A stretch of DNA of 64,000 nt from Sipunculus nudus. Its lineage: Eukaryota > Annelida > Sipuncula > Golfingiida > Sipunculidae. Location of the stretch: the NCBI GenBank assembly GCA_026874595.1, contig CM049317.1, positions 51,233,618-51,297,617 of the forward strand, in the 5' to 3' direction. Under the pieces are notes generated by a model that was not told the origin of the DNA, did not search any database, and saw only the letters and a list, made by a program, of their open reading frames with translations. Position 1 is the first letter of the stretch. Every line of letters starts with the position of its first letter. The position numbers and the translations under genes were made by a program. Below, in pieces: positions 1-50,917 of the stretch.

Positions 1-129
1 AACATTTGGCCGATCCCGGGTTCGAAACCTTGTTGGTGGCACACAAGTCCGGCAGTCCAACCACTTCGCTAGAAAAGCAAGCTTCACTAGCGAGACAGTT
101 CGGTCCCCTTTTATGCGCAACCCGTAACA
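1..129 (-). mobile_element. TRIM 3' LTR, truncated by window edge
   Basis: Read on the minus strand, this begins TGTTACGGG at position 129 and runs out of the window at position 1. It aligns base for base with the LTR at 254-411: a CATAAAAGG TATA-like box, an ACTGTCTCGCTAG stretch, the A-box-like TAGCGAAG and the B-box-like GGTTTCGAACC. About 28 bases of the LTR should lie outside the window. A purine tract (GAAGAGGG) sits just before the TG, where a polypurine tract belongs. It is the second LTR of a miniature LTR retrotransposon. Its identity as an LTR rests on the paired copy and on the complete element at 48412-48736. Confidence 0.75.
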
Positions 130-253
130 CACACCCTCTTCAGAGCGTTCTGCTATCAGATCAGAGCAGGACTAATTATTCCAGGAGTCACACTTTGGTT
201 AGCTTATTCCCTGGGCCACAAAGTTAACCGTCACGTTGGACGAGCCCCCATTT
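130..253 (-). mobile_element. TRIM internal region with PBS and PPT
   Basis: Only 124 bp separate the two LTRs. On the minus strand it starts AAA and then TGGGGGCTCGTCC (238-250), a primer-binding-site-like motif. These 13 bases equal the start of the known tRNA-Pro PBS of murine leukaemia virus. It ends with a purine tract just before the next LTR. The middle is closely matched by 48584-48692 (shared words TTTGTGGCCCAGGGAAT, AAAGTGTGACTCCT, GATAGCAGAACG). No gag or pol coding potential is present, so any movement would need enzymes in trans. The conserved middle may hold packaging or dimerisation signals, which is an inference. Confidence 0.75.
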
Positions 254-411
254 TGTTACGAAGAGAAAATGCTCAGGGGAAAACCCTTGGCCGATTCCGG
301 TTTCGAACCCATGTCGGTGGCGCAGATGTCCGGCGTTCTGGCCGCTTCGTCTGTAAAGCAAGCCTCACTAGCGAGACAGTTCGGGCCGCCTTTTATGTGC
401 AACACGTAACA
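254..411 (-). mobile_element. TRIM 5' LTR
   Basis: A 158-bp LTR with ends TGTTACG...CGTAACA on the minus strand. It contains a CATAAAAGG TATA-like box near the 5' end, an A-box-like block and the B-box-like GGTTCGAAACC, and is followed by the PBS at 250-238. It matches copies at 1-129, 10954-11051, 39649-39805 and 48412-48567. The flank on its right (412-590) recurs beside the truncated copy at 10954-11051, so this insertion predates the duplication of that neighbourhood. Confidence 0.8.
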
Positions 412-4810: not shown

Positions 4811-5489
4811 TCCATTCTAATATGCAACATACCTCACTCTATTTCCCCTTGCCACTCAATCCATGCCTCACTATCCGATTTTGGCAGATACATGTAGTCA
4901 CTTGTCGGTTACCCGTATTCTAGTTTTAAAAGTTTACACATTTTTCTCTATTTTTGAGATATATAAATACAGACTAAATCTTGGACTGTTGGTTAATCTG
5001 TTTGATGCTTCAGTTGAATGGGTATATACTACCATTCTGATGATAAAATTTCCTTTTGCGAATCTCTTCCCAGTCAGCTGAGCGTCATGACCCATGGGTC
5101 ACTTGTTTGTTATTATTACCGCTTTATTATTTCCGGACTTTCCGTATGTAATTTGCACAGCATTTTCTTATATCTTCATTTTGAATGAGGCATTTTTTTT
5201 AGCATTTTGAACTTTTGCATAATTACTGAGATAATCTTCATTTGAACAAATTTGTATGTAATATATGTGAATATTTTATATTACATATTCATGATATTAA
5301 AATAATCTCTATCTGGAATTTTATTTAGAGAATTTTCAATAATTATATTTGTAATTTAATTTTATTTAATTTAATAATAATTTAATATTTGATATATATA
5401 TTGTCACACAGATTTAGGGTTAAAATTTCAAGCTTGTTCTATTTTTCATTTTAATTAAACCGCTCCATGCAGACATCAGTGTTTGTCGT

Positions 5490-5770
5490 GTGGTTTGGTG
5501 ATTCGCATATTGAGAACAATGAAACAGATTTCAAATATCAATATTTCAAATAGTGATATATTTCGATATTTTGTTTAACATGCCTAAAGCTGATTTTTTT
5601 TTAAGTAACAATAATATTTCTTTTGCAAGTTAAGACATCTAAATGAGTTGGTATTGATGGCATACTTAAAGTGAAAGCCGACACCGTGTCAAGCAAGCTT
5701 CCGCCATTCGCTTATTTGGCCCCTATTGCCAGGTTAATTAGTACATAACTGATGGTATAATTATGAATAT
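5490..5770 (+). mobile_element. hAT-family MITE fragment
   Basis: GATTCGCATATTGAGAACAA, TATTTCGATATTTTG, AACATGCCTAAA and ACATCTAAATGAGT match the reverse complement of the complete element at 59810-60315 and the plus strand of 47812-48410. The solo LTR at 5771 cuts it, and its terminal repeats are not visible. The homologous copy is 11775-12044. Confidence 0.6.
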
Positions 5771-6027
5771 TGTTACAGATGTCTCTTCTACTGTATGCAT
5801 AGGTCTTACATGTGTATGTGCAGCGCTAGCATTGTCCGTTGCCATGGGAGACACGCGAGCTGGCCCGGCCCACGCGTGGGGTCTGAAGAGTAAACACAGC
5901 GCTCATACTTATCAGGAACTTTCTGGGCGGGTGTCGTGTAATGTTCTTTGGGCATGTGTATTATGTGTATTGTTGGGTTCTTTAGATTTTTCGGGGAATG
6001 GAAAGTTCTCTGCTTGAGGTGAAAAGT

Positions 6028-6035
6028 TATAAATA
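6028..6035 (+). promoter_or_regulatory. LTR TATA box
   Basis: TATAAATA, about 260 bp into the solo LTR. The equivalent position is TATAAATA in the 12045 copy and TATATAAAG on the minus strand of the 8073 copy, so the box is conserved in the family. Confidence 0.6.
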
Positions 6036-6456
6036 AGAGGCTGTGTTTAGAACCGAGGGAGAGAGAGGAGAGATATATTCCAGCGGACACAGAAGAGTGT
6101 AAGTCAGTTTGCGGACCTTTTTTCCGTTAACTGCAGCAGTTATAGATCTTTTTCGAATTTGTAACGGATTTTATTAGTTTTCAATTTGCCTTTTGGGATC
6201 ATTATCAAACTTTACCTTTTGATTACAACAAATTGATTTTGTGATTGAATTGGACAAGTATTCGCTGAGAAGATTTTTGTGAACTGTTCATCGGGATTAT
6301 ATGCTTTAAAGGACTTGTCGCTGTGACAGTGGTGGTATCCAGGTACTGCACACTTAATTTATTATACTGTGAAATTATATTGATTTGCTGTTGTACTGTT
6401 GTTATACTGTGTAATTGTATTGATTTAGTGTATTGTAATGTTAGGGTTGTTTTAAG

Positions 6457-6462
6457 AATAAA
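6457..6462 (+). terminator. LTR poly(A) signal
   Basis: AATAAA within TTTTAAGAATAAATTATAA. The same block recurs in the 50009 copy and, as its reverse complement, in the 8073 and 14327 copies. Confidence 0.5.
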
Positions 6463-8072
6463 TTATAATTATTTGTTAACAAAAAACCACTGACTTGTTT
6501 ATTCTTTCCCCTAGACATTTCACGCTGCCTAGTTTTACAGAATCGGATTTTTTATATCTCCATTATAAAAATTTATGCTCGTCACGACTACATGATCTGT
6601 TGATATTATGTTCCGTAACAATATTTCCTGATGACTGTCCTAGATACGGATCATGTAATGGACTCACACCAAAATCTAAACGATTCTACATTGGCCCATT
6701 CCCGAAATGCCCTGAATTTCATGAGATTTTATTCATGACTGCCTGAATTATGTTGTGAACATAGAAACACAAAATACACACACAAACACACACGGAAGCG
6801 CATAACCCTGGCAGAGCCAAGGGTATATTATAAGAAAGACCCCGTACTCAGTTTCAATCCAGCAACGAGATTCTCAATGTACGTTTCGTCGGATTATAAA
6901 AAAAAATGTAACACTGAGTTTATCCAAGAATGAAGAAATGTCAGATAACCTAAAATGCTAAATAAAGCTAGTCAAACAATCCAAGGCGTGGAGAGGAAAA
7001 AGAACCTAGTGGTCCTATGAATTTAAATATAAAAAATAGTACTGAAGTGCGTGAAATGTTTCGGTTGGCAATGTCTTAACTTAACCCTTGCATTACGGGA
7101 GAGCCTTGCCGGACTAGCGTACCGCAGACCTGAGGTTCAGCGTCTAAGAAAGAGTCTGCTTATGATAAATACTGGTCTAACTATCACTGAGTGTCTGGGA
7201 AAGAAGCCAAGTTCGTTTTATCATTCATGGCTGTCGTAAATAACTAAGTGACTGTAGCTATTACAACCCAAGCATCAACGATACTGTTAGGAAAAAGGAA
7301 GCGTCCACTGAAATAATTACATTAAAATCCATACATTTGTTTTAATGACAGGTTTTGAATGACGATTGAGATGGAAGATAAGATTTTTAACAACATAAAA
7401 ATTCAAAGACTTATTTCGGGACATCTTGATATCAGTTGTTTTGATTCTACATTGGTGCGTTTTCGAATTGCCCTGAAAATTTCATGAGATTCCATTCATG
7501 ACTGCGTGAGTTATCTTGTGAACAAACACACACACACACAAATACACGTAAGGAAATTAGCGCATAACCTCATGAAGGAGCCAAGGGTATATCATAAAAA
7601 GATGGCAATGTCCTAACTTAACCCTTGCATTACGGAAAAGCCCCGCCGGACTAGCGTACCGCAGACGCGAGGTTCAGCGTCTAAGAAAAATTCTACTTAT
7701 GATTAATACTGGTCTTGCTATCACTGAGTATCTGGGAAAGAAGCCAAGTTCGTTTTATCATTCCTGGCTGTCGTATATAACGACGTGATTGTAGCTATTT
7801 TAGCACAAGCGTCAACGATATTTAATAGAAAAAGGAAGCGCCAAAGATGTAATTACATTAAATAATCCATACATTTGTTTTAATGACAGGATTAAGGTTT
7901 TGAATGACTAGATGGAAGATAAGATTTTCTACAACATAAATAATCAAAAAGACTTATGTCATGACATCTTGATTTCAATTGCGTTGATTCTACATTGGCC
8001 CGTTTCCGAAATGCCCTGAAATTTTCATGAGATTCCATTCATGGCTGGGTGAGATATGATGTGAACAAACAC

Positions 8073-8849
8073 TGAACCGGAACCTAATATAAACAGATCA
8101 CGTATGCGTGATGAACACAAATTTTGTAATTGAGATAAAAAAATCAGATTCTGTAACACTACGTAGCGTGAAATGTCTAGGGGAATGAATAAAGAAGTCA
8201 GTGGTTTTTTGTTAACAAATAACTATAATTTATTCTTAAAACAACACTAACATGACAATACACTAAATCAATAAAATTATACAGTAAAACAGAGGTATAA
8301 CAACAAATCAATACAATCACACAGAAAATAATGTGCACAGTACCTGGATACCAACAACGTCACAACGATAAGTTCTTTAAATGTATACACTCGGAGAATG
8401 ACAGTCCAGTGTAAAGCTCTTGTAACAATCCAGAAAGAAAACTGAAGTCCAAAAGAGTCTGAAGAAAATCTATAATTGCCGCGCACGTCGGATAAGGTCC
8501 CGGAAACCGACAAACACGCTTCTGCGTCCGCTGGAATCTTCTCTGCTCTCTGCCCTCGGTTCTAAAACACAGCCCCTTTATATACTCTTCACTCCAAGCC
8601 GAGAATTTTCCACTTCTAGAACATTCGAAGAATAATACATTATACACGGTAAGCACGCGTCACAGGAATTCTCTAGTAAACCATCGGTGTGTGTATCTCC
8701 ACATACCAGGGTCATCACATGACCTCGGCCAGGCGTGCAAACCCCCAGCCAGCATGACAACGAGAGTTCAACCAGTACGGATTAAACATAAAATGCAACA
8801 ACAACACGAGTTACGTCCGTGTCTATCAATAAAAAGAGCACCTGTAACA
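8073..8849 (-). mobile_element. Solo LTR, 777 bp, minus strand
   Basis: Reverse-strand copy of the TGTTAC...GTAACA family. The plus-strand left edge is TGAACCGGAACC (first bases mutated) and the right edge CCTGTAACA. It is flanked by ACAC on both sides (8069-8072 and 8850-8853), although both lie in CA-repeat sequence, so this target duplication is less telling. The TATA-like box TATATAAAG lies at about 8575-8584 on the minus strand. Confidence 0.8.
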
Positions 8850-8872
8850 ACACACACACACACACACACACA
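8850..8872. repeat. (CA)n microsatellite
   Basis: Uninterrupted CA repeat directly after the LTR, the rest of the CA tract of the 750-bp monomer that the LTR entered. Confidence 0.9.
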
Positions 8873-8935
8873 AATATACATGACAGGGAATTAGCTCATA
8901 CCATCCTGGCGGAGCCATTAGATTTATTATTTTAC

Positions 8936-10180
8936 CATTTGCACCTGAAATTAATATTTTAGTTTTTAAAGATGAATTTCGTTTTCCCGCTTGTTCTTTT
9001 GCCTGGATATTTGACAGGACGCAATGATAATTTTCGTCGCACCAAAGTTGGAGGATACCCGTTCATTACAAATGCTTTGTTGTTAATTTCTATTTTATGT
9101 TTCAACTGAAAAAAAAATCACCAGTCAACGTACACAACTTGCCATACAAATGTCCTGTTCTCACTCTTTCCGTGTCATACGAAAGACATAAAATAAATGT
9201 AACAAAATCTTATATATAATCAACACTTTTTTCTAGGAAAGAAACAGAAAAGAAGACGATTTTAATCTGATTTGACAGATTATTTTCAGATTAGACGCAG
9301 GTGCAATCAGAATGAAGACAATATCTGTTCCTTTTTTTTCTTTTTTGGGCATAAAGAATTGCAAGATATGGTACCAAACGTCTTGAAAATAATGAGTATC
9401 TCGGTTTTTTTTTCCTGACGGGTAAAAGAAAATATATTTTAAAAAAGTTTAAGTTTTCATCATTAAACTTGGGGGGCTGGAGCTCAACAAAAATGTATAT
9501 TAATCAACGTTATTGAATTGGCGCAGAAGAAATATTGGAGAAACTTTAAGAAACTTTTACTTTAGGAACATTTCTAGAACAGTCCCCTTCAAGTTAAATC
9601 TGGCAGAAGTCGGAACTGATTACTAAAAAAGAGCATGGCGTAGGACTGGTTTCATAAAAACGAAAAAACTTTATTTTAATCCCCAAGATCGATATTTTCC
9701 ACAAACTAACAATAAAAAACCTTTCATGGATAAGATTTGCTTATCAGGTTAAAACAGATCAAATAGGTTTCAAATGTACATTAAAAGTTAATCTATACGC
9801 CTGCTAAGACAGACAAATCATTAAATATGCCGAAGCTGAAATAAGATTATCCCTTTTATTGCGATAAATTTTGCATGACGACGGGCAATATCCGTCTTCT
9901 GTCTTTGGCGATTACATTGATAGCGATTACATAGGCATGTTTCCGTCTTTTCATATGACAAAAACAATTAAAAAGCAGTCCATTCCATTAAAAACGAAAC
10001 ATATAGGCGGTGTTATTTTCTTTTGGGGAAAGAACGAACATACCTGACTGATAAACAGGATAATAAATGGACGCCGTTTCGCCAGGCCATGATTAAATTT
10101 AATTGACTTTAAGGTCGAGATGGATGGCCTCTCCTGATAATGTACTATCACTTAAAAGCACTTAGAAAGCATAAATTTTA
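8936..10180. other. No gene or repeat recognised
   Basis: About 1.2 kb of AT-rich sequence between the duplication block and the next LTR. ORFs are short and none resembles a known protein. No counterpart was found elsewhere in the window. Confidence 0.5.
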
Positions 10181-10953
10181 TGTTACGGAACCTAATATCA
10201 ACAGATCACGTATGCGTGATGAACATACATTTTGTAATAGAGATAAAAAAAACAGATTCTGTAACACTAGGCATCGTGAAATGTCTAGGGGAATGAATAA
10301 AGAAGTTAGTGTTTTTTGTTAACAAATAATTTTAATTTTTTCTTAAAACAACCCTAAAATTACAATTCACTAAATCAATACAATTACACAGTACAACAAC
10401 AGTTTAACAGTAAATCAATACAAGTATATAAATAAAGTGTAGAGTAACTGGATACCACCACTGTCACAGCGACAACACGTCCTTTATAACGTACAACCCA
10501 GATGAACAGTTCACATAAATCTTCTCAGAGAATAACAGTCAAGTTCAATCACAAAATCCTTCTGTTGTAATCCAAGGTGAAGTTCTTGTTAATAATCCCG
10601 AAAGCAAACTGAAGATTATATAAGATCCGTCACAAATTTAGAAGAAAATCTATAATTGCCACACTTATAGGAAAAGGTCCACAACTGACTTACAGCGTTC
10701 TGGAATATATCCCTTCTCTCTCCTTTGCTCCAAAAAAACAGCCTCAAGCCGAGCACTTTCCATTTTTCGAACAATCCAAAGAACCAAACATGATACACAG
10801 TGCACACGCGTTATTGGAATCATCTAGAACAACATCGCTGTGTTTCTACATATCAGGGTTGACACGTTGGCTGGCCCGGCATGGCCAGGCGATGATGTCA
10901 TGGCAACGAGCTATGCGTGCTACACAAACCAAATGTCAACAACACATAGAACA
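10181..10953 (-). mobile_element. Truncated LTR, minus strand
   Basis: The plus-strand left edge TGTTACGGAACC is intact, so the 3' end of the LTR is complete. The conserved TTGTTAACAAATAA and GTGACAGTGGTGGTATCC blocks (minus-strand reading of the latter) follow. The expected 5' end (AGATGTCTC) is missing. At about 10954 the sequence switches into a partial TRIM LTR, giving a chimeric junction between two LTR families. Confidence 0.7.
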
Positions 10954-11051
10954 TCCCTGTGCGCAAATGTCCGGCGTTCTAGCCGCTTCGTCTTTAAATC
11001 GAGCCTCACTAGCAAGACAGTTCGGGCCGCCTTTTATGTGCAACCCGTAAC
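10954..11051 (-). mobile_element. Partial TRIM LTR
   Basis: The 5' part of the TRIM LTR on the minus strand, ending at the intact plus-strand edge CCCGTAACA at 11051. It includes the TATA-like CATAAAAGG and AACTGTCTTGCTAG. The 3' half, including the B box, is replaced by the neighbouring LTR. The flank beyond 11051 matches the flank beyond 411. Confidence 0.75.
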
Positions 11052-11074
11052 AATGTATTCCTTGCATTTCGTCT

Positions 11075-11137: not shown

Positions 11138-11188
<51 letters not shown>
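11077..11188. repeat. (TA)n microsatellite, interrupted
   Basis: Two TA tracts separated by a short ATGTATGTTT interruption, the counterpart of 433-474. Confidence 0.9.
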
Positions 11189-11189
<1 letters not shown>

Positions 11190-11774
11190 TCAATATGCAT
11201 GACTTCTTGTATAAGTTAAGTTTGAAATATGGTGTTACACACCTCACGCAGCGGATATACACTGCACTCGTTCTAAATTTCGTGCATTGTATCGCAAGGT
11301 TATCCGGCTATCACAGCAATTTCTTATATCTTCATTTTGAATAGGGCATTTTTTTAGCATTTTGAACTTTTGCATATTAACTGAGATAATCATCACTTGA
11401 ACAAATTTGTATGTAATATATGTGAATATTTTATATTAAATATTCATGATATTGAAATAGATCTCTATCCAGAATTTTATTTAGAGAATTTTCAATAATT
11501 ATATTTGTAATTTTATTCTATTTAATTTAATAATAATTTAATATTTGTATAAAATATATATACTTTCATTGTATTTGTTATTATAGATGGATGCAAATGT
11601 TATTTCAACATATCTAAAATAAGTAAAAGACTTTAGTTATTTATGTCTTAAAATTTATGATATATTTTGATATATGGTAACACAGATTTAAGGTTAAAAG
11701 TTCAAGCTTGTTCTATTTTTCATTTTAATTTAACCGCTCCATGCAGACATCAGGGTTTGTTGTGTGGTTGGGTG

Positions 11775-12044
11775 ATTCGCATATTGAGAACAATTAAACA
11801 GATTTCAAATATCAATATTTCAAATAGTGATATATTTCGATATTTTGTTTAACATGCCTAAAGCTGATTTTTTTTGTAGTAACAATAACATTTCTTTTGC
11901 AAGTTAAGACATCTAAATGAGTTGGGATTAATGGCATACTTAAAGTGAAAGCCGACACTATGTCAAGCAAGCTTCCGCCATTCGCTTATTTGGCCCCTAT
12001 TGCCAGGTTAATTAGTACATAACTGATGGTATAATTATGAATAT
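11775..12044 (+). mobile_element. hAT-family MITE fragment, second copy
   Basis: Homologous to 5490-5770 (GATTCGCATATTGAGAACAA, TTTCGATATTTTGTTTAACA) and cut by the LTR at 12045 at the same base as in copy A. Confidence 0.6.
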
Positions 12045-12721
12045 TGTTACAGATGTCTCTTCGTCTGTATGCATAGGTCTTACATGTGTATGTGCAGCGC
12101 TAGCATTGTCCGTTGCCATGGGAGACACGCGAGCTGACCCGGCCAACGCGTAGGGTTTGACGTGTTAACACAGCGCTCATACTTATCTGGAACATTCTTG
12201 GCGGGTCGCGAGTGTCGTGTAATGTTCTTTCGGCGTGTGTATTGTGTGTATTGTTGAGTTCTTTAGACTTTTCGGGGAATGGAAAGTTCTCGGCTTGAGG
12301 TGAAAAGTTATAAATAAGAGGCTGTGTTTAGAACCGAGGGAAAGAGAGGAGAGATATATTCCAGCGGACACAGAAGAGTGTAAGTCGGTTTGCGGACCTT
12401 TTCCGTTAACTGCAGCAGTTATAGCTCTTTTTCGAATTTGTAACGGATTTTATTAGTTTTCAATTTGCCTTTGGGATCATTATCAAACTGTACTTTTTGA
12501 TAACAACAAATTGATTTTGTGATTGAATTGGACAAGTATTCGCTGAGAAGATTTTTGTGAACTGTTCATCTGGATTATATGCTTTAAAGGACTTGTTGTC
12601 GCTGTGACAGTGGTGGTACTCAGGTACTGCACACTTTATTTATTATACTGTGAAATTGTATTGATTTGCTGTTGTACTGTTGTTATACTGTGTAAAATTA
12701 TATTGATTTAGTGTATTGTTA
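12045..12721 (+). mobile_element. Solo LTR, 3'-truncated
   Basis: Begins TGTTACAGATGTCTC after the same ATAT flank as the 5771 copy. It runs through the TATA box and GACAGTGGTGGT block, then jumps from GTGTATTGTT straight to the sequence that lies downstream of the other copy's insertion (GACTGTCCTAGATACGG). This is a deletion after duplication that removed the poly(A) end. Confidence 0.8.
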
Positions 12722-15700
12722 ATGACTGTCCTAGATACGGATCATGTAATGGATCCACACCAAAATCTAAACGATTCTACATTGGCCCATTCCCGAAATG
12801 CCCTGAAATTCATGAGACTTTTTTCATGACTGCCTGAGTTATGTTGTGAACATGGAAACACAAAATACACACACTGAAGCGCCTACCCTCCGGGCAGAGC
12901 CAAGAGTATATTATAAAAAAGACCCCGTACTCTATTTCAATCCTGGAACGAGATTCTGAATGTACATTTCGTCGGATTATAAAAAAAATCTAACACTGCG
13001 TTTATCCAAGAATGAAGAAATGTCAGATAACCTAAAATGCTAAATGAAGCTAGTCAAACAATCCAAGGCGTGGAGAGGAAAAAGAACCTAGTGGTCCTAT
13101 GAATTTAAATATAAAAAATACTACTGAAGTGCGTGAAATGTTTCGGTTGGCAATGTCCTAACTTAACCCTTGCATTACGGGAGAGCCTTGCTGGACTAGC
13201 GTACCGCGGACCCGAGGTTCAGCGTCTAAGAAAGAGTCTGCTTATGATTAATACTGGTCTTACTATCATTGAGTGTCTGGGAAAGAAGCCAGGTTCGTTT
13301 TATCATGCATGGCTGTCGTATATAACGAAGTGACTGTAGCTATTATAGCCCAAGCATCCACGATACTGTTAAGAAAAAGGAAGCGTCTACTGATATAATT
13401 TCATTAAAAATCCATACTTTTGTTTTAATGACAGGTTTTGAATGACGAGATGGAAGATAAGATTTTTAACAACATAAAAGATTCAATGACTTATTTCGGG
13501 ACATCTTGATATCAGTTGTTTTGATTCTACATTGGCCCGTTTTCGAATTGCCCTGAAAATTTCATGAGATTCCATTCATGACTGCGTGAGTTATCTTGTG
13601 AACAAACACACACACACACAAATACACGTAAGGAAATTAGCGCATAACCTCATGAAGGAGCCAAGGGTATATCATAAAAAGACCCCGTACTCAATCTCAA
13701 TCCAGGAACGAGATACTCAATGTACGTTTCGTCGGATTTTCAAAAGAAAACTAACACTGAGTTTATCCCGAAATGATGAATGTCAGTAACCTCAAATGCT
13801 TAATAGAGCTAGCCAAACCATCCATATAATAATAATACCGAAGTGCGTTAAAGGTTTGGGTTGGCAATGTGTTGAATTTAACCCTGACATTACGGAAAAG
13901 CCCCGCCGGACTAGCGTACCGCGGACGCGAGGTTCAGCGTCTAAGAAAAATTCTACTTTTGATTAATACTGGTCTTACTATCACGGAGCGTCTTTGAAAG
14001 AAGCCAAGTTCGTTTTATCATACATGGCTGTCGTATAACGACGTGATTGTAGCTATTTCAGCACAAGCGTCCACGATATTGTGTAGAAAAAGGAAACGCC
14101 AAAGATGTAATTACTATAAAAATCCATATATGTGTTTTTAATGACAGGATCAAGGCTTTGAATGAGTAAATGAAAGATAAGATTTTCTACAACATAAATA
14201 ATCCAAAAGACACATGTCATGACATCTTGATTTCAATTGCGTTGATTCAACATTGGTCCGTTCCCGAAATGCCCTGAAATTTTCATGAGATACCATTCAT
14301 GACTGGGCGAGTTATGTTGTGAACACTGATACGGAACCTAATATAAACAGATCACGTATGGGTGATGAACACAATTTTTTTAATGGAGATAAAAAAAATC
14401 AGATTCTGTAACACTAGCCAGCGTGAAATGATTAGGAGAATGAATAAAGAAGTCAGTGGTTTTTTTTTGTGAACAAATAACTATAATTTATTCTTAAAAC
14501 AACACTAACATTACATTCACTAAATCAATAAAATTATACAGTAAAACAGCGGTATAACATCAAATCAATACAATCACACAGAAAAGTAATGTGCACAGTA
14601 CCTGGTACCAACACCGACACAACGATAAGTTCTTTAACTGTATACTCTCGGAGAATGACAGTCCAGTGTAAAGCTCTTGTAACAATCCAGAAAGTAAACT
14701 GAAGTCCAAAAGAGTCTGAAGAAAAACTATAATTGCCGCGCACGTCGGATAAGGTCCCACAAACTGACACACACGCTTCTGCGTCCGCTGGAATCTTCTC
14801 TGCTCTCTGCCCTCGGTTCTAAAACACAGCCCCTTTATATACTCTTCACCCCAAGCCGAGAATTTTCCCCTTCTAGAACCATCGAAGAATAATAAATTAT
14901 ACACGGTAAGCACGCGTCACAGGAATTCTCTAGTAAAACATCGGTGTGTGTATCTCCACATACCAGGGTCATCACGTGACCTCGGCCAGGCGTGCAAACC
15001 CCCAGTCAGCATGACAACGAGAATTCAACCAGTACGGATTAAACATAAAGTGCAACAACAACATGAGTTACGCCCGTGTCACACAATATAAAGAGCACCT
15101 GTAACAACACACACACACACACACAAATATACATGACAGGGAATAAGCTCATATCCTCCTGGCGGAGCCAAGAGAATGTCATATAAGAAAGACCCCATAC
15201 TCAGTCTCAATCCAGGAACGAGATTCTCAATGTACGTTTCGTCGGATTATCAAGAAAAACTAACACTGAATTTATCCCGAAATGATGAATTTTCAGTTAC
15301 CTCAAATACTTAATAAAGCTAACCAAACCACCCAAGGCGTGAAAAGGTAAAAGCACCTAGTGGTCCTATGAATTTAAATATAAAAAATAGTACCGAAGTG
15401 CGTGAAAAGTTTCGGTTGGCAATGTATATAATTTAACCCTGGCATTAAGGGAGAGCCTCGACGGACTAGAGTACCGCGGACCTGAAATTCAGCTGTCTAG
15501 GAAAATTCTACTTATGATTAATACTGGTCTTACTATCACGGAGCGTCTTTGAAAGAAGCCAAGTTCAATTATCATACATGGCTGTCGTATTACGACGTGA
15601 TTGTAGCTATTTCAGCACAAGCGTCCCCGATATTGTGTAAGAAAAGGAAACGCAAAAGATGTAATAACAATAAAAATCCATACATTTGTTATAATGACAG

Positions 15701-24407: not shown

Positions 24408-24873
24408 TAATTTTATTTATTTATTTATTTATTTTTTTTTTGTGAAGGTAACCGCCGCCATTTTTAATGCAGACTTATCTACTTCTTTACCTAAGTATGT
24501 ACATCTGCAAAGTTTCCATTTCGCTTTGGGACTGCTTGACAGGGCGGTAGCACTCGCTTGCTATCTTTTTTTTTATTTTGTATCCTGGTGTCACCGAGGC
24601 CCGGTGTCTACCGCACGTGCGGGTCGTGGGTGTGTAATCATCCCCATTGCTGGGTCATAACACCGAGGAACCTCCCAAAGATGCACTCGTATGTAAGTGA
24701 TACACGACCGTGGGCACAGCCTCCCAATTAAGCCTGCAGAGCGCTCATCCTGGGTGGGGACAGACCGTAAAAAACTTCACCGCCTCGGTTGAGATTCGAA
24801 CCCACAATATCCCGGCTTTGAATCCTGCGTTCTACCCCTGAGCCACAGAATCCGGTGCAATCGGGGTATATTT
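24408..24873 (-). mobile_element. tRNA-derived SINE, family 1, minus strand
   Basis: Read on the minus strand: a tRNA-like head with A box TGGCTCAGGGG (24845-24835) and B box GGTTCGAATC (24802-24793), 43 bases apart as in tRNAs. A body follows (GAGCGCTCTGCAGGCTTAAT, GGTTCCTCGGTGTTATGACC, TTTGCAGATGTACATA) and an A-rich (AAAT)n tail near 24408-24445. The second copy is 38488-38820. Confidence 0.75.
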
Positions 24874-33587: not shown

Positions 33588-33722
33588 TAGCAATGCTGGT
33601 TCATTTTACATAGATGGAAAGGGTATACACAGAAATGTCGGTTTACTGCCGGTGGGATTCGAACCCACGATCTTCCTATTTCCGGTGCGGCTGCCGTAAA
33701 CACTTTGCCACGCCAGATCCCC
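33586..33722 (-). mobile_element. tRNA-derived SINE, minus strand
   Basis: Read in reverse: GGATCTGGCGTGGCAAAGTG head, B box GGTTCGAATCC, T-stem CGTGGG...CCCACCG paired, then a short body ending in the TA microsatellite. The A-box-like TGGCAAAGTG is at tRNA spacing. The acceptor stem does not close, so it is a SINE rather than a tRNA gene. Confidence 0.6.
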
Positions 33723-38487: not shown

Positions 38488-38820
38488 TATTTAACCGGCT
38501 TCAGTGGTCTAGGGGTACAGCAAAGGGCTCAAAACCAAAAGATCGCTAGTTCGATTCTCAGCCGAAGCGGAGCCAATTTTCACGGTTGGCCAACACACAG
38601 GGTGAGCGCTCTACAGGCTCAATACGGAGACTGTTCCCAGCAATCGTGTCTCACAAACGAGTGCGCCTTGCGGGGTTCCTCGGTGTTATGACCCCGCAAT
38701 GGGGTGACACACACCCAGGATGGAATTCTGCAGATGTAGATTGTACTAAGTAATGCAAGCTTTCTAAACATGGAGCGGTTACCTCCCCCCCCCCCCGAAA
38801 AAAAAAATATAATAATAATA
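38488..38820 (+). mobile_element. tRNA-derived SINE, family 1, plus strand
   Basis: The head has A box TGGTCTAGGGG (38505-38515) and B box AGTTCGATTCTC (38548-38559). The body words GAGCGCTCTACAGGCTCAAT, GGTTCCTCGGTGTTATGACC and TCTGCAGATGTAGAT match the minus-strand copy at 24408-24873. It ends in an A-rich tail with AATAAT repeats. GATACA on both sides (38480-38485 and about 38821-38826) may be the core of a target duplication. Confidence 0.75.
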
Positions 38821-39648: not shown

Positions 39649-39805
39649 TGTGAAGGGGTGACATAAAAAGCGGACCGAACTGTCTCGCTGGAGAAACTTG
39701 CTTTTCTAGCGAAGCGGTTGGTACGCCGGACATGTGCGCCACCGATATGGGTTCGAATCCCGGATCGGCCCAGTATGTTCCCCTGAAAAATTTGTCTTCG
39801 TAACA
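39649..39805 (+). mobile_element. TRIM solo LTR with tRNA-like block
   Basis: 157 bp, TGTGAAGGGG...CTTCGTAACA, no PBS downstream, so a solo LTR. Flanks CTAC and CTAA are a possible decayed 4-bp target duplication. It holds the clearest Pol III-like signals in the family: A box TAGCGAAGCGG (39707-39717, exact to TRGCNNAGYGG) and B box GGTTCGAATCC (39750-39760, exact to GGTTCGANTCC). The starts are 43 bases apart as in real tRNAs. A TATA-like CATAAAAAG lies upstream. Confidence 0.8.
39707..39760 (+). promoter_or_regulatory. Pol III A-box/B-box pair inside TRIM LTR
   Basis: TAGCGAAGCGG and GGTTCGAATCC at tRNA spacing. A three-base D-stem (GCG/CGC) and a T-stem GGG/CCC can pair, but the acceptor stem cannot. 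Whether Pol III uses it is an inference. Confidence 0.55.
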
Positions 39806-43556: not shown

Positions 43557-44379
43557 TGTGAAAGATGTCTCTTTTATTGTATGCAGGAGTGTTTTTGTTC
43601 AGTGATACCGTTATCTGTTGCTATGACGGCATAGCCCGGTCCACGCGTGGGGTCTCACGTGTAAACGGCGGTCATGCTAGTCTGGGGCTCGGCCCACCTG
43701 TGAACCTTGACATGTACAAACACAGCGTTCTTGTTCAAAAGGTTTCCTGTAACGTGTCCACTATGTATCATGTTAGATTCTTTAGATTGTACAGGAAGTG
43801 GAAAGTTCTCGGCTTTGGGGAGAGAAGTTTTAAACAGGGGGCTGGTGAGAGAATATTCCAGCGGACACAGAAGGGTGGAACTTTTCCTATAATTGCGGCA
43901 GTTACGGCTTTTCTTCTAAATTTGTGATGGATTTATACAGTCTTCAGTTTGCCTTTCGGATCACTGCCAGGATTTCACTTTGGATTACAGTAGAATGATT
44001 TTGTGATTACAATGGACTGTTATTCTCTGAGAAGATCTGTGTGGACTGTTCATCCATTATACATTTTAAAGGACTTTTCGCTGTGACAGTGGTGGGATCC
44101 AGGTACTGTGCACTTTGCCTATAATGCTGTGTGATTATATTGATTTGCTGTTATACTGTTGTTGTACTATGTAATTTTATTGATTTAGTGTATTGTAATG
44201 TTAGGGTTGTTTTAAGAATAATTATTGTTATTTGTTAACAAAAAACCACAGACTTATTTATTCATTCCCCTAGACATTTAACGCTGCCTAGTGTTACAGA
44301 ATCTGATTGTTTTTTATCTCCATTACCAAAAGTATGTTCGTCAAGACTACGTGATCTCTTGATTTTAGATTTCATAACA
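43557..44379 (+). mobile_element. Solo LTR, 823 bp
   Basis: Starts TGTGAAAGATGTCTC and ends TTTCATAACA, flanked by ATTA on both sides (43553-43556 and 44380-44383). The internal landmarks of the family are kept: GACAGTGGTGGGATCCAGG, GTTAGGGTTGTTTTAAG and CCTAGACATTTAACGC. Both ends carry substitutions, so it is older than the 5771 and 50009 copies. No internal region. Confidence 0.85.
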
Positions 44380-48411: not shown

Positions 48412-48567
48412 TGTTAAGGGGTGACATAAAAGCGGACCAAACTGTCTCGCTAGAGAAGCTTGCTTTGCTAGCAAAGCGGTTGGTACGCCGGACTTGTGCG
48501 CCACCGACATGGGTTCGAAACTGAGTTCGGCCTAGTCTTTTCCCCTGAGCAATTTGTCTTCGTAACA
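48412..48567 (+). mobile_element. TRIM 5' LTR
   Basis: 156 bp, TGTTAAGGGG...CTTCGTAACA, with TATA-like CATAAAAGC, A-box-like TAGCAAAGCGG and B-box-like GGTTCGAAACT. It closely matches the solo LTR at 39649-39805. Confidence 0.8.
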
Positions 48568-48570
48568 AAA

Positions 48571-48583
48571 TGGGGGCTCGTCC
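48571..48583 (+). other. TRIM primer-binding site
   Basis: TGGGGGCTCGTCC, three bases after the LTR end. The identical 13-mer lies at the same place in the element at 1-411 (238-250, minus strand). It would pair with the 3' end of a tRNA ending GGACGAGCCCCCA. Confidence 0.75.
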
Positions 48584-48692
48584 AACGTAACTTTTTTTCT
48601 TTGTGGCCCAGGGAATCAGCTCACCAAAGTGTGACTCCTAGGATAATTAGTCTTGTTCTGATAGCAGAACGTTCTTAAGTTAAGAGGGGATG

Positions 48693-48736
48693 TGTTACGG
48701 CCAAATATTTCCCCTGAGCAATTTGTCTTCGTGACA
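48693..48736 (+). mobile_element. TRIM 3' LTR with internal deletion
   Basis: The first nine bases of the LTR are joined to its last 35 or so (CCCCTGAGCAATTTGTCTTC, GTGACA). The target duplication follows directly, so the deletion happened before or after insertion without touching the ends. Confidence 0.75.
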
Positions 48737-50008: not shown

Positions 50009-50917
50009 TGTAACAGATGTCTGTTTTAATGTGAGCTGTTGACATGTCTCTTTAATTGTGCGCTGTTGACATTCTGATTCGTGTTTGGCTCAAGCCCAGG
50101 GCGTTTATGCTACAGCATTCCTTTGTTCTAGCTGGCCGGGTGCGGCCTACGTGTAAACACAGCGGTCATGCTAGTCTGGGGCTTTCTCGCCTGGCCGAGC
50201 TGGACCGGCCCACGTGTGAACCCGGCCATGTAGAAACACAGCGTTCTTTGTTCTAGAGGTTTCCTGAAACGTGTGTACTGTGTATCATGTTGGGTTCTTT
50301 GGATTGTTCGGGAAATGGAATGTTCTCGGCTTGAGGTGAAAAGTTATAATAAGGGGCTGTGGGAGAGCCGAGGGAGAGGAGATATATATTTCAGTGGATA
50401 CAGAAGAGTGTAAGTCAGTTTGTTGACCTTTTCCCTATAACTGCAGCAGTAATAGCTTTTCTTCGAATTTGTAACGGATTTTATTTTGTCTTCATTTTGC
50501 CGTTGGGATCACTATCAGAACTTTACTTTTGGATTACAACGGATTGATTTTGTGATTGAACTTGACTGTTATTCTCTGAGAAGATTTATGAACTGTTCAT
50601 CTGGGTTGTACAATATAAAGGACCTGTTGTCGCTGTGATAGTGGCGGTATCCAGGTACTGTACACTTTATTTATATACTTGTATTGATTTGCTGTTGTAC
50701 TGTTGTTATACTGTGAAATTGTATTGATTTAGTGTATTGTTATGTTAGGATTGTTTTAAGAATAAATTATAATTATTTGTTAACAAAAAAACACTGATTT
50801 CTTAATTCCTTCCCCTATACATTTCACGCTGCCTACTGTTACATAATCTAATTTTTTCCATTACAAAATTTATGTTTCTGACGCATACGTGATCTGTTGA
50901 TATCAGGTTCCGTAACA
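50009..50917 (+). mobile_element. Solo LTR, 909 bp
   Basis: Starts TGTAACAGATGTCTG, ends GGTTCCGTAACA, and is flanked by perfect ACAG duplications (50005-50008 and 50918-50921). TATA-like TTATAATAAGGGG lies near 50343 and AATAAA near 50760. It contains an imperfect internal repeat near its 5' end (GAGCTGTTGACATGTCTCTT then GCGCTGTTGACAT), which helps explain its extra length. No internal region. Confidence 0.85.

Follow-up and report, generated by a model that had tools for sequence, protein, structure and literature searches.

The elements closest to the one analyzed here are those named Helenus, TRIMs with tRNA-like LTRs described by Kojima in 2024 from fungi, a plant and six animal phyla; in molluscs they were found in pteriomorph bivalves, where 51 families were recognized (PMC10886601). 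As described there, Helenus elements have a total length of 311-1263 bp and consist of two LTRs without a coding region, animal members generate 4-bp duplications, and bivalve members use tRNA-Pro among other primers; helpers of the animal elements were inferred from PBS similarity (PMC10886601). According to the same paper experiments are needed to establish the use of Pol III by Helenus; it states that complementarity between the tRNA-like block and the PBS was looked at and not found, and the strings "terminat" and "TTTT" bring up nothing on Helenus in its main text (PMC10886601). Two other systems are related in organization. The RNA of Cassandra, a plant TRIM with a 5S rRNA block in each LTR, begins in the block of the 5' LTR and ends in that of the 3' LTR (PMC10886601), and biv-TRIM is a bivalve TRIM that occurs with solo repeats and in tandem arrays (PMC6934838).

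The window, i.e. the whole stretch of 64,000 nucleotides of Sipunculus nudus DNA that was analyzed (assembly GCA_026874595.1, contig CM049317.1, positions 51,233,618 to 51,297,617), includes at 39649-39805 a segment that a sequence-only reading had described as the LTR of a TRIM with a tRNA-like Pol III promoter. The main features are listed in Table 1. With a probability of roughly 0.7, we consider this segment to be a solo LTR of a Helenus-type TRIM of about 430 bp that would be transcribed by Pol III with the tRNA-like block serving as R, and whose T-arm would be a site of template switching. The A and B boxes proposed in the sequence-only reading were confirmed at 39707-39717 and 39750-39760, 43 bases apart from start to start, as were the TATA-like box and the TG...CA ends of the LTR. 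The flanks of this solo LTR, ctac and ctaa, are identical at three of four bases. The pair of boxes is unlikely to be a chance occurrence, since the degenerate A-N-B composite is found four times in the window as compared with a mean of 0.25 and a maximum of 3 in 60 first-order Markov simulations. Two of these four composites belong to the Helenus-type family and two to another tRNA-headed repeat, beginning with TGGCTCAGGGGTAGAAC and including a B box, which is located at 24793-24845 (minus strand) and 38505-38557 (plus strand). The two copies of this repeat are about 74% alike over 234 bp and probably represent a SINE family. A further perfect B box, GGTTCGAATCC, at 33655-33665 (minus strand) has no A box at the spacing found in tRNAs.

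Table 1. Location of the Helenus-type copies, their motifs and the second LTR family within the window.
Feature	Position	Strand	Remarks
Solo LTR, Helenus-type TRIM	39649-39805	+	TG...CA ends; flanks ctac/ctaa
TATA-like sequence CATAAAAAG	39662-39670	+	CATAAA in 123/145 LTRs
A box TAGCGAAGCGG	39707-39717	+	Degenerate A box retained in 115/145 LTRs
B box / T-arm GGTTCGAATCC	39750-39760	+	Degenerate B box retained in 108/145 LTRs
ATCCCGGA, exact complement of the final 8 nt (TCCGGGAT) of the full 18-nt tRNA-Pro PBS	39757-39764	+	Proposed annealing site in template switching
Site of the TTTT run of the family, candidate Pol III terminator	39776-39779	+	TGTT in this solo LTR itself
5' LTR, fuller copy	48412-48567	+	Target duplication attg/attg; B box is GGTTCGAAACT
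Internal region of the 48412 copy	48568-48692	+	PBS TGGGGGCTCGTCC at 48571-48583; purine tract AAGAGGGGATG at 48682-48692
3' LTR of the 48412 copy, short	48693-48736	+	Internal deletion, tRNA-like block gone
5' LTR, another full copy	254-411	-	A box degraded; target duplication acat/acat (read in L039)
Internal region of the 254-411 copy	130-253	-	PBS at 238-250
3' LTR of the 254-411 copy	1-129	-	Cut by the start of the window
Helenus LTR, initial 92 bp, joined to the second LTR family	10961-11052	-	
Second LTR family, candidate helper	10177-10960	-	Ends in ..GGTTCCGTAACA; upper boundary set by eye
Second LTR family, other copies in the window	8078-8767, 14330-15022, 6305-6618, 44058-44377, 50169-50915	-, -, +, +, +	

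An exact 29-mer from the LTR has 1,173 matches in the 1.43-Gb genome, a number that is a lower bound on the size of the family, and its reversed control has none. Three genome searches were carried out, in which the best 40 of 3,195, of 2,386 and of 2,684 first-look candidates were scored, and 108 loci together with the window yielded 66 distinct chains with both ends complete. TG...CA ends are present in 61 of these chains, and in the remaining five the alignment ended one base early. The copies with the structure LTR-int-LTR (n=45) are 325-440 bp long (median 430), with two LTRs of about 156 bp each. The element is too short for gag-pol, and a Pfam search at E 0.1 of the three stop-to-stop frames that overlap the copies in the window gave no matches. 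An exact 4-bp target duplication flanks 39 of 61 chains, as opposed to a mean of 3.4 and a maximum of 6 in rotated pairings; duplications of 3, 5 or 7 bp do not occur in the 61 chains, while those of 6 and 8 bp occur six and five times. The only repeated flanks in this set are AT repeats, and once these are removed the 6- and 8-bp duplications disappear and 30 of 46 chains still show the 4-bp duplication. A 13-nt PBS with at most one mismatch is found at 56 of 71 LTR/internal junctions, but the exact 18-nt tRNA-Pro PBS at only 3 of 71 ordinary junctions: among complete chains with a recognizable PBS, the bases that follow it are AA in 40 of 43 and GGGAT in two. We take this PBS to be of the tRNA-Pro type, an assignment backed by antisense tRNA copies in three of the loci read from the genome (L134, L143 and L147). 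A purine run of at least 8 nucleotides, the PPT, precedes the LTR at 52 of 62 internal/LTR junctions. The two LTRs of an element differ by 1.9% to 19.9% (median 8.4%, 39 pairs). Judged from these sequences, the family has the anatomy of LTRs, PBS, PPT and 4-bp duplications, priming of the tRNA-Pro type and a high copy number, and it includes solo LTRs as well as tandem LTR-int-LTR-int arrays.

This anatomy bears on the possibility that the element is a tRNA-derived SINE, mobilized by a LINE, that merely resembles an LTR element. Such an origin would account for the tRNA-type A and B boxes, the short length and the abundance, but SINEs generate duplications that are longer and variable in size, and they lack LTRs, PBS and PPT. 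Mobilization of a SINE by a LINE is refuted because the duplications have a fixed length of 4 bp and flank a pair of LTRs on the outside; with the PBS and the PPT added, the identity as a SINE is ruled out and its probability is negligible.

By its TRIM size, the tRNA-type A and B boxes within the LTR, the PBS, the PPT, the 4-bp duplications and the use of tRNA-Pro, the family resembles Helenus, and it can be considered Helenus-type, an assignment that is made by structure (length, boxes, PBS, PPT and 4-bp duplications) rather than by sequence identity to the named families. Its high copy number and tandem arrays are shared with Helenus LTR-11_DR (PMC10886601). On the other hand, it differs from Helenus in that the fifth base of box A is G, not Y, in its commonest form, and, compared with Helenus as reported, in that the full tRNA-Pro PBS would pair over 8 nucleotides with 41 of 145 LTRs. 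With Cassandra it has in common a Pol III-type promoter in the LTR, a (candidate) terminator in the same block and the occurrence of tandem arrays (PMC10886601, PMC7215508). The promoter is of the tRNA type and not 5S, the host is an animal and not a plant, the PBS corresponds to tRNA-Pro instead of methionine tRNA (PMC10853983), and transcription by Pol III, reported for Cassandra, is here predicted from sequence. The parallel to Cassandra drawn in the sequence-only reading thus stands, in that the LTR of this animal TRIM carries a Pol III-type promoter resembling a tRNA; it is not new, because such elements were published in 2024 as Helenus (PMC10886601). Like biv-TRIM, the family is a TRIM with solo repeats and tandem arrays, and it is unlike biv-TRIM in that the latter has repeats of 202-218 bp, an interior of 77-80 bp and no clear PBS, a tRNA block being unmentioned in the available text (PMC6934838). 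The family is independent support for the view that Helenus-type elements are a real class with high copy numbers in an animal genome.

The tRNA-like block was compared with genuine tRNAs. The tRNA covariance search proposed together with the sequence-only reading came out negative, as the Rfam tRNA model has no match to the LTR even at E 10. ARAGORN (bacterial-code setting) identified no tRNA genes in the window and none in 57 of 68 search loci, and the minimum-energy fold predicted for 39683-39779 consists of hairpins without a cloverleaf (z -1.4, with 16 of 200 shuffles equally good). A true tRNA gene was rejected on these three grounds. A conserved RNA structure is not claimed either, because columns 39744-39746 vary more than their partners, the frequency of the commonest base being 0.74-0.85 as compared with 0.97-0.98. 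When 20 of the 23 junction loci described below were searched with Rfam at E 5, the sole tRNA match was the copy of the primer tRNA in L143 (30.7 bits, threshold 29). A match to tRNA-Sec over a portion of the L135 LTR was below threshold (22.7 bits, E 0.91), and three 13-nt matches to tmRNA (9.7 bits) fell on T-arms. To judge from these searches, the block is a promoter-like resemblance to a tRNA and not a tRNA.

By analogy with the Cassandra RNA, which extends from one 5S block to the other, we propose a layout in which the tRNA-like block is the R region. In the 5' LTR, Pol III would start immediately upstream of the A box and read through the weak TTTT located there, to stop at the equivalent TTTT of the 3' LTR. 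The block of roughly 85 nucleotides between this start and TTTT would then be the repeated R region. A coding LTR element, probably a Gypsy, would package the RNA, and tRNA-Pro would prime its reverse transcription. Thus defined, the R region makes this a testable model of transcription. TTTT is found at the position of 39776-39779 in 132 of 145 LTRs. GTTCRA, the core of the B box, is present in 113 LTRs, and in 97 of these TTTT follows it at a distance of 19 nucleotides. The tails of 103 of 113 LTRs include TTTT, in comparison to about 52 in shuffles of the same tails; in the interiors it is present in 17 of 94, as against 24.6 in shuffles. This spacing is fitting for Pol III termination within the 3' LTR, as far as a sequence motif can tell. 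Early termination of some Pol III transcripts at the TTTT of the 5' LTR should be expected.

Other properties of the LTR would suit Pol II. CATAAA, which is also a variant poly(A) hexamer, is present in 123 of 145 LTRs and is conserved at least as well as the boxes, a point against the Pol III proposal, and transcription may instead begin, by Pol II, at the TATA-like box. The parts of the LTR that vary least are the TATA-like region and TTTT (mean variant fractions 0.022 and 0.019, respectively). A Helenus-type TRIM that carries a relic tRNA-like block with decaying boxes, whose RNA would be transcribed by Pol II starting at the TATA-like box and whose R would be very short, would agree with these values and with the location of TTTT, which every Pol III transcript has to cross. 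It agrees less well with the scarcity of AATAAA, which is found in only three LTRs and missing from 142 of 145. What the two explanations predict for the boxes is different, and the excess of box conservation, although it is in the direction expected for a promoter in use, is not significant, as a relic block would allow. Mean variation is 0.039 at the box-core sites and 0.0645 elsewhere (P 0.13), whereas for the whole boxes it is 0.051 (A box) and 0.076 (B box) with about 0.06 in the rest, i.e. the whole 11-base B box is slightly more variable than the rest of the LTR. The statement that all full-length LTR copies keep the block holds only roughly: both degenerate boxes are retained in 84 of 145 LTRs of the genome sample, and the block is altered or lost in three LTRs of the window. 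Sets of 14 random other sites were all unchanged in a mean of 54 LTRs (95% 21-90; P 0.07), a comparison that favors the boxes because variation was allowed at their degenerate positions. A test of rare versus shared variants gave a Fisher P of 0.34.

The 39 pairs of LTRs permit a separation of changes by age, since differences between the two LTRs arose after insertion and changes common to both were inherited. Post-insertion differences are about as frequent in the 14 box-core sites (45, or 3.21 per site) as in other sites (3.47 per site), while just one of 104 inherited changes is located in the box cores. The cell-level Fisher P of this comparison, 0.003, is inflated by shared ancestry; with sites as the unit P rises to 0.09-0.15, equally low values being reached by 9 of 105 slid masks. 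Over thresholds of 3-8 loci the site-level P is 0.06-0.28. The box cores may thus be under constraint, with a suggestive trend in favor that is not significant with sites as the unit, and of the expected higher conservation of the boxes the part that holds is the direction in the cores. The single inherited change, together with the fact that 9 of the 13 box variants common to at least 5 loci are permitted by the degenerate promoter consensus, argues against a relic block, which we regard as unlikely without considering it negligible. The reading in which Pol III would transcribe the element is the one we retain in what follows.

A search of the genome for an LTR end and PBS not continuing with A gave 266 places; 20 places, chosen from 100 of these so that odd spacers were included, were read. 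In three of the 20 the PBS is followed by an inverted copy of the T-arm of the LTR itself. An exact 25-mer across this junction occurs at 23 places in the genome (reversed control, 0), all of which were read. Because L130/L131 and L145/L146 share flanks, they represent 21 independent junctions. To the right of the PBS there is an inverted Helenus LTR in 20 and an antisense tRNA-Pro in three (L134, L143 and L147); to the left, Helenus LTR sequence in 19 and another LTR in four (L138, L147, L148 and L150). As the search pattern selected such junctions, the number found is no measure of their share of all copies; they look like a small minority against at least 1,173 LTRs. We infer that these junctions are template switches that occurred during reverse transcription and were primed on the tRNA-like block. 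This template-switch signature is the new part of the present analysis, and none of the literature titles and abstract openings screened was recognized as describing fusions of a PBS to a T-arm.

The same junctions could have been generated by chromosomal recombination between neighboring inverted elements instead of reverse transcription. The position of the junction was set by the search pattern, several of the left arms are truncated or complex, and the pairs with shared flanks are segmental copies, all of which this explanation would accommodate. It does not predict antisense primer tRNA at 3 of 23 junctions, nor the extension of 14 of 20 inverted arms to position 1 of the LTR. Both outer ends are available at seven loci. 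L136 was excluded because its left LTR follows an interior and its outer end is outside of the sequence retrieved for this locus, and L130/L131 were counted once, leaving five independent palindromic copies with the flanks tggc/tggc, cctt/cctt, agga/agga, atat/atat and tgaa/taaa. The duplication is exact in four of these five testable cases, a result that also speaks against recombination. Matching duplications were seen by eye in L145 (aaca) and in L151 (aaag), where the left end is an inverted U5 end. Recombination between neighboring elements is in our opinion improbable as the source of the junctions, and template switching is the interpretation developed below.

Switching within a single molecule was considered as well. 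The inverted arm of 10 copies was ranked by its similarity to the left LTR of the same copy among 145 LTRs, and the ranks ran from 1 to 126: L152, L135 and L130 ranked 1, 2 and 3, while L141 and L133 ranked 122 and 126. A plain snap-back is therefore not established, and is weakened as a general origin, the switch having often taken place between molecules.

The T-arm sequence ATCCCGGA is found in 41 of 145 LTRs, as compared with 8 of 2,900 Markov shuffles, and TCCGGGAT, the end of the 18-nt copy of the primer, is its complement. Plus-strand strong-stop DNA would end in a copy of the T-stem of the primer (..TCCGGGAT). Such an end would pair with the Helenus T-arm and not with the tail of the usual Helenus PBS, where primer pairing extends over only 13 nucleotides; as ordinary copies lack GGGAT, an 18-nt copy of the primer would meet mismatches at its own PBS and would fit a T-arm carrying ATCCCGGA. 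This difference may be the reason why the fusions recur. A switch onto a Helenus LTR would generate LTR-PBS-inverted-LTR molecules, some of them joined to a second LTR family, which integrase would still insert. On this view the tRNA-like block would come at a cost to the element. With the 18-nt PBS at 3 of 71 junctions and ATCCCGGA in 41 of 145 LTRs, the 8-nt fit applies only if the primer itself was copied, or in some copies. The GGGAT at the 20 inverted junctions may equally derive from the T-arm, and direct copying of the primer is seen in the three tRNA copies only. In L143 (G000:C8:23602452-23602996), a Helenus LTR and its PBS are followed by about 55 nucleotides of antisense tRNA-Pro and by an LTR of the second family; apparently the reverse transcriptase proceeded through most of the primer tRNA before it switched near CCTAGAC. 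Tentatively, and with chances close to even, we suggest that the tRNA-like LTR acts as a built-in recombination site, on whose T-arm the plus-strand strong-stop DNAs of both Helenus and its mobilizing LTR element would prime to yield palindromic and chimeric cDNAs that are inserted by integrase. The chimeras would then be a fossil record of co-packaging.

If this is the case, template-switch chimeras would reveal which element helps a TRIM whose promoter is of the Pol III type, and fusions of a PBS to a T-arm that link a TRIM to another LTR would offer a route to the helpers of non-coding LTR elements. The second LTR family is present at 6 of the 23 junction loci (L133, L138, L143, L147, L148 and L150) and occurs at least six times in the window, where the start of a Helenus LTR is fused to it at 11052-10177. 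A TATA-type sequence was seen in its LTR in L156. About 2.6 kb after a PBS of this family in L113 there are integrase domains followed by a fragment of RT (L157), whose location in the same element is a candidate assignment only. The second LTR family is perhaps the Helenus helper, given its recurrence at these fusions.

The first candidate helper had been a Gypsy-like element in L129 (G000:C3:67375300-67381500) with a full tRNA-Pro PBS, the PBS also found in the second LTR family, and with RT, RNase H and integrase in separate pieces and in Gypsy order. It was dropped because none of the 23 junctions has it as left arm. A zf-MYND finger (E 2.9e-10) lies within L129:1579-2577.

Within the window, the blocks 5396-8917 and 11670-15170, of 3.5 kb, have main pieces that are 92-94% alike, with LTR sequence of the second family in opposite orientations around internal repeats. 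A shared flank (433-583 and 11146-11313) is found upstream of the full Helenus copy at 411 and of the fusion between Helenus and the second family at 11052, which suggests a duplication followed by an exchange.
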